Source: Bacteroidota bacterium (GTDB lineage: Bacteria; Bacteroidota; Bacteroidia; Chitinophagales; LD1). Taken from it: a stretch of DNA of 64,000 nt. The translations under genes were made by a program, and so were the position numbers. Location: positions 62,001-126,000 of the forward strand of contig JAPLES010000002.1 in NCBI GenBank assembly GCA_026391075.1, written 5' to 3'. The notes under the pieces were generated by a model. That model was not told the DNA's origin and searched no databases. It saw only the letters and a program-made list of their open reading frames with translations. Below, piece by piece: positions 7,563 to 40,976 of this stretch. How positions within the stretch are numbered: the stretch's first letter is position 1; each line of letters opens with the position of its first letter.

Positions 7563-8867
7563 TCAATTCGCTAACCAAAGTTCCGGGTCCATCTTATCTT
7601 TTCCTTTCCAGATTTCGAGATGGACTTTCGTGAGGTCTTCATTTTTGTCTGTGTGCAATTTACCCAGCGATTGCTTGGTTGAAATTGTTTGATTGGTTTT
7701 TACCGAGACCGTTTCAATGTTGCTGTAAACGGTAAAAAATTCTCCATGCTTGATGATAACGCAATTTTGTGTGGTAGGAAGATAGAACACGCTCACTACC
7801 GTCCCGCCAAAAACTGTTCTTGCATCGGCACCGGCTTCGGTTTTAATATCCACTCCGTTGTTCTCCACTATTACACTTTTCAAAAGTGGGTGAGCGTGTT
7901 TCCCAAATTGCGAAACCACATGTCCACGCTCAACGGGCCAAGGCAACTTGCCCTGATTGTTCGAAAAATCTTTTGATAATGCCTGCTCTGCCGGGGTGAG
8001 TGGCATGGTTTCGCTTGTTCCCTTTTTAATAGAAACGTCTTTTGTTGTTCCTGGATTTTTGCGCGCTTGCTCTTCTGCTTTTTTTCTTGCCTGACGAATT
8101 TCATCTTCAATAATTGCCTGAATACGTCCGTTTAGTTTTTCAGCGGCTTTATTTTTTTCGTCTTGCGCTTTGCGTAATTTTTTTTCTTTTTCTAAAAGCA
8201 AACTCACAGCGGCATCCTTTTCTTTTTTCTCGCTTTCGAGTTCTTCCTTTTGGGCGGTTTGTTTCACGAGCAGGTTTTCTTTTTGCTCTTTGGTATCCAC
8301 CAAATTATCTTTCTTCTGTTTCAATTCATCAATAGAAACCTGAATAGCTTTTGCTTGACCTCTGCGGTATTCCGCAATTTTTAAAAGATAATTGTAACGA
8401 TGCAGTGCATTGTAAAACGATGTAGAAGAAAGCAGGAAAGCAGTTTGGTTCTGCAAAGTTGTATTGGCATAACTCGTCCGCAACATGCGCGCATAGTCGG
8501 CTTTCATTTTTTCTACTTCGGTTGACTGTGTCGAAATCTCCACTTCGGTTTTGTCAATTGTTTCATCGAGATTGCCAATTTGATTATTGATGTTGCCAAT
8601 CAGATTTTCGCGCGATTTTATTTTGGCTTGCAGCGAAAGAATTTCGCCCATGCTCTTTTCTTTCTTGGCATTATTGCTCTTTAATGCCGCCTCAATCGTT
8701 TTGATTTCATCCTGCAACTTCTTCATTTGTTGTTGAAGCTGCTCCTTTTTTATTTTGGTAGTTGTTTGCGCAGGAGAGACGATAGACAATAGACAATAGA
8801 CGATAGATAACAGCAAGGCGAGGCTGTTCACTTTGATTTTTGAACTTTGATTTTTGATTTTACTCAC
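7563..8867 (-). CDS. EnvC-like murein hydrolase activator (degenerate M23/LytM)
   Basis: A 434-residue exported protein with a signal segment (residues 15-33), a long coiled coil (about 36-270, rich in Lys, Glu and Gln with KKxxEEQARK patterns) and a C-terminal LytM/M23 domain (about 310-432). The zinc-site residues are eroded: VENNGVDIK lacks the first histidine, VHLEIW keeps only the second histidine of HxH, and TVYSNI replaces the usual TxYxHL. By analogy with E. coli EnvC it should activate amidases at division rather than cut peptidoglycan. The start is GTG 8867, overlapping the DUF4292 stop by four bases; no nearby in-frame ATG exists. Oddly, most of the leader is encoded by two heptamer arrays. 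Confidence 0.82.
   Translation of the reverse strand: MSKIKNQSSKIKVNSLALLLSIVYCLLSIVSPAQTTTKIKKEQLQQQMKKLQDEIKTIEAALKSNNAKKEKSMGEILSLQAKIKSRENLIGNINNQIGNLDETIDKTEVEISTQSTEVEKMKADYARMLRTSYANTTLQNQTAFLLSSTSFYNALHRYNYLLKIAEYRRGQAKAIQVSIDELKQKKDNLVDTKEQKENLLVKQTAQKEELESEKKEKDAAVSLLLEKEKKLRKAQDEKNKAAEKLNGRIQAIIEDEIRQARKKAEEQARKNPGTTKDVSIKKGTSETMPLTPAEQALSKDFSNNQGKLPWPVERGHVVSQFGKHAHPLLKSVIVENNGVDIKTEAGADARTVFGGTVVSVFYLPTTQNCVIIKHGEFFTVYSNIETVSVKTNQTISTKQSLGKLHTDKNEDLTKVHLEIWKGKDKMDPELWLAN
8777..8811. repeat. Heptamer array, 5 units, encoding EnvC signal peptide core
   Basis: Units AGACGAT, AGACAAT, AGACAAT, AGACGAT, AGATAAC on the plus strand. On the coding strand they give the LSIVYCLLSIV part of the signal peptide. 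The array is in the same 7-base phase as the one at 8826: the 49-base offset equals seven units and 14 bases lie between them. Confidence 0.85.
8826..8860. repeat. Heptamer array, 5 units, encoding EnvC N-terminus
   Basis: Units GTTCACT, TTGATTT, TTGAACT, TTGATTT, TTGATTT on the plus strand. On the minus strand they encode KIKNQSSKIKVN immediately after the GTG start of the EnvC-like protein. Confidence 0.85.
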
Positions 8868-9607
8868 TCCTGTTTTTTCATTTTTTCGCTCACTTCAAAA
8901 GGGAAACTCAACTCACTATCAACCGTTGCTTTTAAAATTTCCATCTGCAAATTCATGCGCTGCGAATCGCGGTTGATGAGAATGTTTCGCCTGTACGAAA
9001 ACGGTTTTTCCCGTAATAAATTATACGAGGTAAAAGTAGCCGACAGGTCTTGCTTTAGCAGCTTGTCTTTCAACAAAATATTTTCAATGGTGTAGTTTGT
9101 GTTGTTCACTCTCGCTTTTTCATAGAGCTTATCTGTTTCATCATATAGGGCAACAGCGCTGTCTTCTTTTGCTGCGAAAGAAGTTTTTGTAGCGATACTT
9201 ATTTTTTCTCCGCCCAGAATCTGTTGCAGCATTTTGAAATTTACAGGGAACGTTAGCCAGTTTTCGATATAGCTGAAATCACGAGCTAAATATTCATTTG
9301 AGAGTTTATTGATAAGAAAAAAAGAATCAGGAGTAATGACTACGCGCGCACCTTCAATGCCAAACAATCCCAAACTCAACCATATCACACTGTCTTTCTT
9401 TATGCGAATAGTTGCCAAAAACTCCTGCTCGGTATTGCCATCGTTCCAAATCATCCTTGAACGAAGCGAAATTGTTTTGTAAGAAATTTGATTGGAAACA
9501 ATTTTTGCAGAAACAGAATCGTAGTTCAATTGCAAAGAGTCCTGTGCAACACAAAAGCTTGATGAAAAAAAAAGGAAGAGAAAAAATAGTTGGAGGCGCA
9601 GAATCAT
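8864..9607 (-). CDS. DUF4292 family protein
   Basis: A 247-residue exported protein of the DUF4292 family, of unknown function and common in Bacteroidota next to an EnvC-like gene. A signal peptide occupies residues 1-21, ending near FCVAQD. The body is a beta-rich fold resembling lipoprotein carriers (LolA/LolB-like in shape, by recollection), with recognisable blocks SLGLFGIEGARVVITPDSFFLIN and WLTFPVNFKMLQQILGG at residues about 75-135. No cysteine lipobox is evident at the cleavage site. It overlaps the EnvC-like gene by four bases (TGA/GTG), so the two are translationally coupled, pointing to a shared envelope role. Confidence 0.8.
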   Translation of the reverse strand: MILRLQLFFLFLFFSSSFCVAQDSLQLNYDSVSAKIVSNQISYKTISLRSRMIWNDGNTEQEFLATIRIKKDSVIWLSLGLFGIEGARVVITPDSFFLINKLSNEYLARDFSYIENWLTFPVNFKMLQQILGGEKISIATKTSFAAKEDSAVALYDETDKLYEKARVNNTNYTIENILLKDKLLKQDLSATFTSYNLLREKPFSYRRNILINRDSQRMNLQMEILKATVDSELSFPFEVSEKMKKQE

Positions 9608-10834: not shown

Positions 10835-11800
10835 ATGAAGCTGCCATTTTCAAATGAGGACAAATCTAAAGCCCTCTCCTTCGGAGAGGGTTTGGGAGAG
10901 GTGGCGTCTGACAAAAGAAAGAAGCTAAGAAGAATCGAAATCAAAACCAGGAAACTCTCTAATCAGATTTTCTCGGGCAGTTATCATTCTGCGTTTAAAG
11001 GAAGAGGTATTTCCTTTAGCGAAGTTCGCGAATATCAGTATGGCGATGACATTCGCGCCATTGATTGGAATGTAACAGCGCGCAATCGCAAACCATTCAT
11101 CAAAGTTTTTGAAGAAGAAAGAGAGTTGACTGTGATGTTGCTGATTGATGTAAGTCAATCTTCTTTTTTCGGAACACAAAATGAGTTCAAGAATCACATC
11201 ATTGCCGAGATAAGCGGAGTGATTGCTTTTTCTGCTATTACCAATAACGATAAAGTAGGCGTTCTGTTTTTTAGCGACACGATTGAGAAATTCATTCCGC
11301 CCAAAAAAGGAAAAACACATATTCTGCGGATTATTTCAGAGATATACGATTTCCATCCAAAGCAAACCGGCACTAATCTTCCCGAGGCGTTGAAGTATTT
11401 CAATAATGTGGTGAAGAAAAAATCAATTGCGTTTTTGGTTTCCGATTTTTTAAGTAAAGATTCTCAGCAAGAAAAATTCCAAAAGGATTTTAAGAAGTCA
11501 TTGAGTATTGTCGGCAAGAAACACGACTTAATCGGTTTGCATATTTATGATGAACGCGAAGCCAACATGCCGGATATTGGCTTGGCAAAAGTAGTTGACA
11601 GCGAAAGCGGAAAAGAATTTTGGATTGATACCAGCGATAAAGCGCTTCGTGAAAAATATGCGAAAACCTTTCACGAAAATGTGCGCAGCACAAAAGATTT
11701 ATTTGGCAAGAGCGGAGCGCAGTTAGAATCTGTTAAGACAGAAGACAACTACGTGATTTCGCTGATGAATATGTTTAAGAAAAGAGAAAGCAAAAGATGA
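10835..11800 (+). CDS. DUF58 domain protein (MoxR partner)
   Basis: DUF58 proteins pair with MoxR ATPases in envelope-associated operons. The 321-residue protein carries the signature FKGRGISFSEVREYQYGDD split around residue 55-75, then IRAIDWNVTARNRKPFIK, then a VWA-like fold opening MLLIDVSQSSFFG (about residue 100). The first 26 residues are unusual: ALSFGEGLGEVA is the translation of a GC-rich hairpin element (10872-10890), so the N-terminal extension is probably recent and dispensable. A later start is possible, but no ATG lies between 10835 and the conserved body. The stop overlaps the next gene's ATG by four bases. Confidence 0.87.
   Translation: MKLPFSNEDKSKALSFGEGLGEVASDKRKKLRRIEIKTRKLSNQIFSGSYHSAFKGRGISFSEVREYQYGDDIRAIDWNVTARNRKPFIKVFEEERELTVMLLIDVSQSSFFGTQNEFKNHIIAEISGVIAFSAITNNDKVGVLFFSDTIEKFIPPKKGKTHILRIISEIYDFHPKQTGTNLPEALKYFNNVVKKKSIAFLVSDFLSKDSQQEKFQKDFKKSLSIVGKKHDLIGLHIYDEREANMPDIGLAKVVDSESGKEFWIDTSDKALREKYAKTFHENVRSTKDLFGKSGAQLESVKTEDNYVISLMNMFKKRESKR
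10872..10890 (+). repeat. GC-rich hairpin element inside coding sequence
   Basis: A perfect 8-bp stem CCCTCTCC/GGAGAGGG with a TTC loop, followed by TTTGGGAGAGGTGGC. It is translated in frame as part of the DUF58 protein's N-terminus (ALSFGEGLGEVA). Together with the copy at 10793 it forms an inverted pair about 80 bases apart. Confidence 0.75.
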
Positions 11801-12774
11801 TGAGTTGGCGGTTCGCAATTTACGGTTCACAGTTAGTAAAGTTTTTACGCTTTGCAGCTATTGCATTTTTGTATTTGCCGTTAGCTGTCAACTGTCAACA
11901 GCCAACGGCTGTTCTACGCGCTGACTCCACTCAAATTCAAATTGGCGACCATCTCAATATTCGTTTAACGGTTAAGAGTCCGAACAACTTGGTTGTTCCT
12001 TTTCCTGCTGCTGCTGATACACTCGGAAATTTAGAAATGGTTTCTGCTGCTAAAATTGATACAAGCGCAGAAGGCAGTAATAAAGTTCTTTCGCAACTCT
12101 ATACAGTTTCTGCTTACGATTCAGGAGAGTTTCATGCCGGACCGGTTAAGATTTATTTCAAAAACAATAACGGAGAATTGGATAGCGTTCTTTCAAATGA
12201 CATTCCGGTTACAGTAAATACTTTGAATGTTGATACCGCTAAACCTTTCAAAGCCATTAAAGCTCCTTTAGATGTTCCTTATTCTTGGAGAGAATTTATT
12301 CCTTACATCATTGGAGCAGTAGTTTTGCTGATTGCGATTATTGTCGGCATCATTCTTTGGAAGAAATACCGCAAACCAAAACAAGCGGTGATTGAGCGAC
12401 CAAAACCAAAAGACCCTGCACACATCTGGGCGCGCAAAGAGTTGAAAAAACTGGAAGAAGAAAAAGTTTGGCAAGGCGATGATGTAAAACTGTATTACAG
12501 CCGGTTGACCGATGTGCTTCGCTTGTATGTAGAATATCGTTACGGCTGGTATGCAATGGAATCAACTACCGAAGAAATTCAAAGTGAAATTGAAAACTAC
12601 AACCTGAAAGAAAAGGCAAAAGAAAATCTGCTTTCGATTTTGCGTGCAGCTGATTTAGTGAAGTTCGCGAAGATGATTCCGATGCCTGATGCAAATATCC
12701 GTGCAATGGAAAGCGCTTATAAGTTTATTGATTTCACTGAGCCGAACGAAAACAAACCGGAAGAGAAAAAATAA
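11797..12774 (+). CDS. BatD-like membrane protein of the MoxR/Bat operon
   Basis: A 325-residue exported, single-span membrane protein. After a leader (residues 1-37), residues 38-150 look like an Ig-like beta domain as in BatD N-termini (DSTQIQIGDHLNIRLTVKSP). A membrane helix follows at residues about 168-190 (IPYIIGAVVLLIAIIVGII), then a cytoplasmic helical domain ending in WYAMESTTEEIQSEI and AMESAYKFIDFT. The position between DUF58 and batA fits the short BatD/DUF4381-type proteins of such operons. It overlaps both neighbours (ATGA upstream, TAATG downstream). Two heptamer arrays flank the hydrophobic core of its leader. Confidence 0.65.
   Translation: MMSWRFAIYGSQLVKFLRFAAIAFLYLPLAVNCQQPTAVLRADSTQIQIGDHLNIRLTVKSPNNLVVPFPAAADTLGNLEMVSAAKIDTSAEGSNKVLSQLYTVSAYDSGEFHAGPVKIYFKNNNGELDSVLSNDIPVTVNTLNVDTAKPFKAIKAPLDVPYSWREFIPYIIGAVVLLIAIIVGIILWKKYRKPKQAVIERPKPKDPAHIWARKELKKLEEEKVWQGDDVKLYYSRLTDVLRLYVEYRYGWYAMESTTEEIQSEIENYNLKEKAKENLLSILRAADLVKFAKMIPMPDANIRAMESAYKFIDFTEPNENKPEEKK
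11803..11837. repeat. Heptamer array, 5 units, in BatD-like leader
   Basis: Units AGTTGGC, GGTTCGC, AATTTAC, GGTTCAC, AGTTAGT. They encode residues 3-14 (SWRFAIYGSQLV) directly after the start codon of the BatD-like gene. Confidence 0.8.
11880..11907. repeat. Heptamer array, 4 units, at BatD-like signal cleavage region
   Basis: Units GTTAGCT, GTCAACT, GTCAACA, GCCAACG. They encode LAVNCQQPTA at the end of the leader. The offset from the array at 11803 is 77 bases, again a multiple of seven. Confidence 0.75.
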
Positions 12775-25721: not shown

Positions 25722-28700
25722 CTACATGCTTCGCCTGTATTGACCTCCCACCTCATACAGCGCATGACTAATTTGCCCGAGCGAACAAACCTTTACGGTT
25801 TCCATCAGCTCGGCAAAAAGATTTCCGTTGGTAGTAGCCACCTGCTGTAAACGCTTCAGTGCTTCTTCGCTTTCTTTTTCGTGGCGCTTTTTAAAAGCGT
25901 TGAGAGCAGCGATTTGAAATTCTTTTTCTTCAGTGGAAGAACGAATTACTTCTTTAGGAATAATTGTTGGCGAGCCGTTTTTAGAAAGGAAAGTATTGAC
26001 ACCTACAATCGGAAACTCGCCCGTATGTTTTTGGTGTTCGTAAAACATACTTTCCTCTTGAATTTTATTGCGCTGATACATGCGCTCCATTGCACCCAGC
26101 ACTCCACCGCGCTCTGTGATTCTTTTGAATTCAGTCAGCACCGCTTCTTCAACAAGCGCAGTCATTTCTTCAATCAGAAAAGAACCTTGATTCGGATTTT
26201 CGTTTTTCGCAGTTCCTAATTCGCGATTGATGATGAGTTGAATTGCCATTGCTCTGCGCACACTTTCTTCGGTAGGCGTTGTGATGGCTTCATCGTAAGC
26301 ATTCGTGTGCAACGAATTGCAGTTATCATAAATAGCATAGAGCGCCTGTAGTGTTGTGCGGATATCATTGAAATCAATTTCCTGCGCGTGCAAACTTCTG
26401 CCGCTGGTTTGAATATGATATTTCAGTTTCTGCGAGCGCTCGTTGCCTTTGTATTTCTGCTTCATGGCCTTCGCCCAAATTCTGCGCGCCACGCGTCCAA
26501 TCACCGAATACTCAGGGTCCATACCATTGCTGAAAAAGAAAGAAAGGTTAGGCGCGAAGTCGTCAATCTTCATTCCTCTACTCAAATAATATTCTACATA
26601 AGTAAAACCGTTGGCAAGCGTAAACGCGAGTTGTGTAATCGGGTTGGCACCGGCTTCGGCAATGTGGTAACCACTGATAGAAACCGAATAGAAATTCTGC
26701 ACTTTATTCTCGATGAAATACTGCTGCACATCGCCCATCATCTTCAGCGCAAACTCGGTGCTGAAGATACAGGTGTTTTGCGCCTGGTCTTCTTTCAAAA
26801 TATCTGCCTGCACCGTTCCGCGAACAGAAGAAAGCGCTTTAGCTTTTAGTTTTTCGTAAACATCTTTTGGTAAAACTTTATCACCGGACAAGCCAAGTAT
26901 TTGCAAACCGAGTCCATTGTTTCCTTTCGGAAGTTCTCCATTGTATGAAGGTAAGTCTTGTGTCTTGTGTCTTGTGTCTTGAATCTTGTTTTCTGCAATA
27001 TATTTCTCACACTCCTGGTCAATCGCAGCATTCATAAAGAAAGCGAGAATCATCGGAGCCGGTCCGTTGATGGTCATGCTCACCGAAGTTTTCGGACTGC
27101 ATAAATCGAAACCGCTGTAAAGTTTTTTTGCGTCATCAACAGTTGCAATGCTTACTCCTGAATTTCCAACCTTGCCGTAAATATCGGGGCGGTGGTCAGG
27201 GTCTTCGCCATAAAGTGTCACCGAATCAAAAGCAGTTGATAAACGAATAGCGGGTTGGTCTAGCGACACATAATGGAAACGTTTGTTGGTGCGCTCCGGT
27301 CCGCCTTCACCGGCAAACATACGCGTAGGGTCTTCGCCTTCGCGCTTGAGCGGAAACACACCGGCTGTGTAAGGAAACTCACCCGGCACATTTTCCTGCA
27401 ACTGCCACTTCAGAATATCGCCCCAGTCTTTATAGCGTGGCAAATACACTTTGCGGATAGTTGTTCCGCTGAGCGATTTAGATGTGAAGGGCAAATCCAA
27501 AACTTTATCGCGCACTTGAAATGCAAATGTATCGCCTGAATATTTTTTTTGTTTCTCATTCCACTCATCCAACAACTTTTTGCATTCGGGGTGAAGTAGT
27601 TTTTCGAAGTGAGTGATTAGAAGTTCCACTTCTTTAAGAAGTGGAACTTCTTTTGCCACTTCTTTCACTCCATTCAGCTGATACAACTTAGTAGCAATTG
27701 CACACTGCTCATTCACCCATTCATCGTAACGCTCGTTGTTCTCGGCAATCTCTGCCAGATAACGAACACGAGCCGGAGGAATGATTTGTGATTTAGTAAC
27801 GGTGTTCTTTGCTGAAGTATGTTTTACTTTAAAATCAACTTTGGTTTTCTCTGTCATCTTGTGCATCAGCAATTCGAACAAGTGATTCACACCCGCATCG
27901 TTAAACTGAGATGCTATCGTTCCCACTACAGGAACATCTTCGTCCTTCGTCATAAATATTTGATGACTGCGCTTGTATTGTTTGCGCACATCTGCTAATG
28001 CATCCAGCGCACCTGCCTTATCAAATTTGTTGATGGCAATAGCATCGGCATAGTCAAGCATGTTTATTTTTTCGAGCTGCGTTGGCGCTCCGTATTCAGG
28101 AGTCATTACCAATAGCGAAACATTGCAGTAGTCGAGAATCGAAGCATCGCTTTGTCCGGTGCCCGCGCTTTCCAGAATAATAAAATCGAACTGGGCGGCT
28201 TTGCAAACATCAATTGCTTCTTGCACATGCACGCTGAGTGCCTTATCGCTTTCACGTGTAGCCAACGAGCGCATATAAGCGCGTGGATTCGAAATAGAAT
28301 TCATTCTTATTCTATCGCCCAATAAAGCACCACCGGTTTTCTTTTTACTCGGGTCAACAGAAATTACAGCAATAGTTTTATCGGTATAGCTCTTCAAAAA
28401 CCTGCGGACGATTTCATCCGTCACTGAAGATTTTCCTGCGCCACCAGTGCCGGTAATACCGAGAACGGGAATGTTGGATGTCGGGTGTCCGATGTCCGAT
28501 GATGCTTTCCCGTTTTCTGCAAGTGTGATGTATTGACCAATCCGTTTCCAGTCGCTTGTATTTACTTCCGACTTCGGACTTCCGACTTCGGACTTCGTTA
28601 CTGTTTCATAATCGCAATGCTTTACCACATCTTCAATCATACCTTCCAGCCCCATTGTTCTGCCATCATCGGGCGAATAAATTTTTACGATTCCGTATTT

Positions 28701-39134: not shown

Positions 39135-40976
<1,842 letters not shown>

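Follow-up and report, generated by a model that had tools for sequence, protein, structure and literature searches.

Short tandem repeats of 7-base units probably serve as export signals in the analysed freshwater Bacteroidota genome, and the heptamers appear to turn over in place under selection for the properties of a signal peptide. The starting example is the leader of an EnvC-like protein encoded within a 64,000-nucleotide stretch of DNA (the window, whose numbering is used below unless another contig is named), and the features concerned are as follows.

7563-8867, minus strand: EnvC-like gene, an ORF of 434 aa with a GTG start, comprising the leader, a coiled-coil region and a C-terminal M23 domain
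8864-9607, minus strand: upstream gene for a LolB1-type outer-membrane lipoprotein insertase (DUF4292)
8766-8867, minus strand: predicted signal peptide MSKIKNQSSKIKVNSLALLLSIVYCLLSIVSPA with Q at +1 (from the translation; cleavage site inferred from the sequence)
8777-8811, minus strand: h-region array, GTTATCTATCGTCTATTGTCTATTGTCTATCGTCT on the coding strand (sequence, TRF); its unit recurs in 26 other leaders of the same genome
8812-8825, minus strand: spacer of 14 bases between the arrays, AGCCTCGCCTTGCT on the coding strand, without heptamer repeat
8826-8860, minus strand: n-region array, AAATCAAAAATCAAAGTTCAAAAATCAAAGTGAAC on the coding strand (sequence, TRF); other heptamers replace it in congeners

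The C-terminal part of the EnvC-like protein matches PF01551 (M23/LytM domain) at 58.2 bits. The NCBIfam EnvC model gives a near full-length alignment at 60.6 bits, which does not reach the equivalog cut-off of 270, and since the score lies under this curated threshold, the protein is referred to as EnvC-like rather than EnvC. The product of the upstream gene scores 151 bits with NCBIfam LolB1_Flavo, over the cut-off, and also matches PF14125. The TGA of this gene and the GTG of the EnvC-like gene overlap as GTGA (8864-8867), so the GTG start is well placed. The leader fits the pattern of a Sec signal peptide (SPase I or lipoprotein type), with a K-rich n-region, the core LLSIVYCLLSIVS and an SPAQ end, the last being present also in the related genomes G004 and G015 (the genome under study is G000). 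Of 41 related genomes, 40 yielded an orthologue of the EnvC-like protein.

Both arrays are evident in the sequence and were detected by TRF, together covering residues 3-31 of the minus-strand ORF; the initial annotation is borne out in so far as it described repeat DNA as the material of the leader and of its hydrophobic core. On the plus strand, positions 8777-8811 read AGACGAT AGACAAT AGACAAT AGACGAT AGATAAC, and this array with its flanks encodes the hydrophobic core. Positions 8826-8860 read GTTCACT TTGATTT TTGAACT TTGATTT TTGATTT, where the slot GTTCACT is a poor match to the unit, and encode the K-rich n-region KIKNQSSKIKVN. The further proposal that the two arrays form a patchwork of 12 slots in one phase does not hold: the units are unrelated (AGACAAT vs. 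TTGATTT), the spacer is not heptameric, and in G001 the n-region array is offset by one base relative to an AACAGCC anchor, most of which lies in the spacer and which is conserved in G004, G015 and G001. A shared register is in any case an empty observation, because unrelated units can always be rotated into register. In the 255-kb contig, 13 period-7 arrays scoring at least 16 were found vs. 0 in an order-3 Markov simulation, and other periods gave 0-1 arrays each, with the exception of period 14, a multiple of 7.

Because 7 equals 1 modulo 3, a change of the frame in which a perfect heptamer array is read only rotates the encoded heptapeptide, so that no more than two peptides can arise from a heptamer unit, one from each strand. 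The three-frame translation proposed earlier as a check is thus answered by arithmetic, as every frame gives the same rotated heptapeptide and the strand alone matters. The unit TATTGTC is translated into SIVYCLL, with a mean hydropathy of 2.4, a value reached by 2.6% of open heptamers; its complement gives a polar peptide containing a stop. For most of the A-rich units located in n-regions, the encoded peptide is polar and contains K or R.

The census of arrays covered 1.26 of the 3.6 Mb of this genome and 0.55 Mb from three congeners (~1.8 Mb from four congeners in total), while sequence retrieved around pattern matches contributed to the TATTGTC list alone and was kept out of the census. 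Gene calls were made by a simple script, starts and cleavage sites were inferred, and the reading frames of leaders were chosen by whole-frame coding scores. The pattern of the TATTGTC family has 74 matches genome-wide (reversed control, 0), which correspond to 38 places: 27 in the sense orientation in leaders, three sense outside likely genes, five antisense in polar protein stretches and three antisense outside genes. All 27 leader places use the strand giving (SIVYCLL)n, and the opposite strand is confined to hydrophilic stretches or non-genic DNA (27 sense-in-leader vs. 5 antisense-polar among the 32 coding places; hand-computed Fisher p ~5e-6). The leader that had been singled out as unusual has about 26 counterparts in the genome. 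The 27 proteins are mostly unrelated and represent ~20 families, including three PorP/SprF proteins, BatD, a GH3 enzyme, GldD, an LptC-related protein, penicillin amidase, two PhoD-like paralogues, an Lnb-type protein, an OmpA-TPR protein, a putative porin and several proteins without a family. On visual inspection, an [AS]Q cleavage site was recognised at the end of 17 of these leaders and a lipobox cysteine at the end of seven (24/27 together).

In one of the three frames, variants of the unit with the sequence TATCGTC can introduce an Arg codon into the core. This frame is used by 1 of 31 such units, where one third would be expected (p 6e-5, a value that is too small, as units within an array are not independent), and such avoidance of Arg codons in cores points to selection on the peptide.

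The census yielded 112 arrays. An N-terminal position was found for all 25 genic arrays whose product is hydrophobic, vs. 35 of the 62 other genic arrays (p 1.7e-5), and arrays in leaders were also observed at loci of G001, G004, G015 and G017. A number of these hydrophobic arrays at N-termini lack a clear cleavage site or precede the likely start (e.g. C14:66336, upstream of a RuvA-like protein), and some arrays are intergenic near starts. Arrays were present in 17 of the 318 roughly predicted exported proteins of the sample (about 5%), which amounts to more than a marginal effect in this genome. Among named matches, the nearest are MAGs of freshwater and other origin that carry the label Bacteroidetes or Chitinophagales; since these come from several projects and the arrays are short, an assembly artefact is disfavoured. 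The 112 arrays fall into 58 unit classes, vs. ~102 expected for random units, and units aligned by rotation and strand have a common skeleton, GAMAWYN, with an information of 5.05 bits vs. 4.22 ± 0.13, part of which may be explained by classes related by descent.

Arrays were also found in other parts of proteins. The MutL gene (39135-40976, minus strand) contains a perfect AAGTCCG array at 39749-39779, in the part encoding the linker that joins the N- and C-terminal domains, and a 1102-aa methylmalonyl-CoA mutase fusion gene (B12-binding, MeaB and mutase domains) contains arrays at 26955-26989, 28471-28501 and 28564-28597, all three of which give polar peptides. In five proteins (G000:C18:73881 (L084 region), G000:C24:13683, G000:C37:11011, G017:C2:55640 and G017:C2:77366), a heptamer array lies near the C-terminus directly before a GVYF-like motif, in a region that looks like a putative type IX secretion sorting domain.

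Comparison of the N-termini of orthologues revealed that distant relatives have other leader residues and no 7-base periodicity, EnvC-like leaders in other genera being non-repetitive, and that near relatives have the 7-base periodicity with other units. No distant relative with the same residues and no periodicity, which the initial annotation had regarded as the mark of coincidence, was encountered. Heptamers occupy the EnvC-like leader site in at least five congeners, in which the mature protein is 97% (G004), 94% (G015), 78% (G001), 77% (G016) and 76% (G017) identical to that of G000. The n-region units of these congeners are GAAGTCC in G004, AATTACA in G015, AAGTTCA in G001, ATACGAA in G017 and TTTTCAA in G016. 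The core unit is TATTGTC in G000 and G015, TGTCTTG in G001, CTACTGC-like in G017 and ACTCATT in G009, and the core of G004 is a worn copy of the TATTGTC array. When the leaders of G000, G004 and G015 are aligned on the AACAGCC anchor, the sole gap is one codon, and the unit differences repeat slot after slot, which makes independent point mutation very unlikely and indicates that the arrays were homogenised or replaced in place. With only ~60% identity at four-fold sites between these three genomes, there has been enough time for units to turn over. Both arrays of the GH3 leader differ between G000 and G017, and the MutL linker carries AAGTCCG in G000 and GAAATCA in G017 at the same place (reciprocal best hits in both cases); between G000 and G015, the unit is unchanged in a 514-aa protein (C14:56326-57870) and in an epimerase-like protein. 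All of the array-bearing orthologues found are in frame. In addition, the gene at 11797-12774 (plus strand) is only weakly periodic, at 7 bases, in its predicted cleavage region, and its orthologues in G015 and G017 have core arrays of the GGTCAAT type, which indicates that the strength of an array at one site differs between species.

The arrays observed, the rule linking strand and location, the change of units at fixed sites and the avoidance of Arg codons are probably best accounted for if repeat DNA serves as export signals. Heptanucleotide arrays of 3-5 units are numerous in the genome, their units belong to a restricted, related set, and the strand of an array sets whether its heptapeptide is hydrophobic or hydrophilic, whatever the frame. 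T-rich arrays, giving (SIVYCLL)-like peptides, would be retained solely in leaders at the N-terminus, where most of them form the hydrophobic core, and A-rich arrays, giving mostly K/R/N/Q/S peptides, would be retained in n-regions, linkers and loops; the EnvC-like leader combines one array of each kind as its n-region and h-region. Units at one site change jointly in all slots, with the length kept in frame, which agrees with concerted evolution through slippage or conversion, and selection would act on charge, hydropathy and frame, not on particular residues. The leaders presumably work in export.

A more far-reaching version, in which the dispersed heptamer family is a genome-wide supplier of signal-peptide cores, its arrays being copied between loci and turning time and again into the export signal of unrelated proteins, with new leaders born from repeats, is put forward tentatively, as a possibility slightly less favoured than its opposite. 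Blocks of 28 bases are common to C17 and C18 and to C20 and C79, the latter with a rare GCC variant, and shared blocks with rare variants suggest copying between loci; as proof of copying, these blocks were rejected, because two-variant patterns recur by chance.

Signal peptides are tolerant of sequence, and the arrays might be tolerated junk, neutral repeats surviving as passengers because signal peptides accept nearly any hydrophobic sequence. Their occurrence in linkers and loops as well (the MutL linker, the methylmalonyl-CoA mutase fusion) fits such a reading. However, the array makes up most of the hydrophobic core of the EnvC-like protein and has to be the functional part of the signal if export takes place, and one unit class recurs in 27 leaders within a vocabulary more restricted than that of random units. 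This explanation, which differs in degree from that of repeats serving as export signals, is considered rather unlikely.

Phase variation would imply that slippage adds or removes units and alternately breaks and restores the reading frame of the downstream gene, the way in which 3-53 perfect AAGACTC units switch neuO in E. coli K1 (PMC13001214). As in neuO, the arrays are located towards the 5' end of genes and encode a repeat peptide, and their unit length is not a multiple of three; moreover, enrichment of simple sequence repeats near N-termini has been cited as a sign of phase variation (PMC4692102). Unlike in neuO, the arrays described here have 3-5 imperfect units, the peptide is a predicted signal-peptide core, and every array-bearing orthologue was found in frame. 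Short and interrupted arrays also slip more slowly, and many of the genes are housekeeping ones (LptC, MutL, EnvC-like), so that a switch of this kind is improbable.

It is equally doubtful that the arrays act at the DNA or RNA level, binding a regulator or keeping the mRNA start unstructured, with the peptide as a by-product. The shared GAMAWYN skeleton and the intergenic arrays near starts would agree with such a role, and a translational role has been proposed for the TAACTGA repeats of Beggiatoaceae, Cyanobacteria and some Bacteroidetes, which are located mostly before start codons (MacGregor 2015, PMC4679880). Similar to the arrays of this study, those are heptamers near gene starts, a few of which lie inside ORFs at protein ends, and TAACTGA rotated to GATAACT is one position off the GAMAWYN skeleton. 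They differ in having one fixed, mainly intergenic unit, as opposed to many units in leaders here, and no TAACTGA array was found among the TRF arrays of the window or the units of the census. In addition, a role in DNA or RNA predicts neither that the strand rule tracks hydropathy nor that Arg codons are avoided, and the units at one site differ between close species. Finally, the notion that an AT-rich leader only looks periodic, to which the poorly matching slot GTTCACT and the empty register claim might lend some weight, is practically eliminated by the 13 vs. 0 arrays of the simulation and by the heptamers at the same site in congeners.

Heptamer repeats in bacteria are already known, and their use as signal-peptide cores would be the new aspect. 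The arrays have the properties of bacterial heptanucleotide simple sequence repeats, namely a 7-base unit, tandem copies beyond chance and dispersal. According to the accounts of Mrazek 2007 given in PMC4679880 and PMC4692102, an excess of heptanucleotides among long simple sequence repeats is found in bacteria, likewise in several tandem copies, dispersed and with slippage as the proposed origin; as far as these accounts go, the arrays of this study differ in lying within coding sequence and in signal-peptide cores, in the strand rule and in the change of units at fixed sites. The GGGAATC repeats of Xanthomonas and the GGGGA(C/T)T repeats of Nostoc (PMC4692102) are also dispersed heptamers, present in hundreds of copies, but they are G-rich, quadruplex-forming and under-represented on the coding strand of ORFs. 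No account of heptamer or tandem repeats as signal-peptide cores was found in the open-licence papers searched.

Matches to the GAMAWYN pattern occur in 58 of 395 genomes sampled across the phylum, some of them much richer than this genome, the highest number being 230 in G330 (control, 0). Samples of 80-100 kb from two further genera of this family and from one genome of a different family contained no period-7 arrays. Three lineages at a greater distance (G387, G155 and G313) have their arrays mostly between genes, and leader use is not evident there. GACAATT-type arrays of G387 (L216-L222) occur as inverted pairs 20-50 bases apart, mostly intergenic, and these pairs could form long hairpins. 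Based on this small sample, the use of arrays in leaders may be particular to the clade studied here.

The probable concerted evolution of a coding repeat is visible at a site where only the peptide properties, strand and frame are kept. The results suggest that repeat DNA of low complexity can act as protein targeting signals in nature and at scale, which bears on the origin of new exported proteins.
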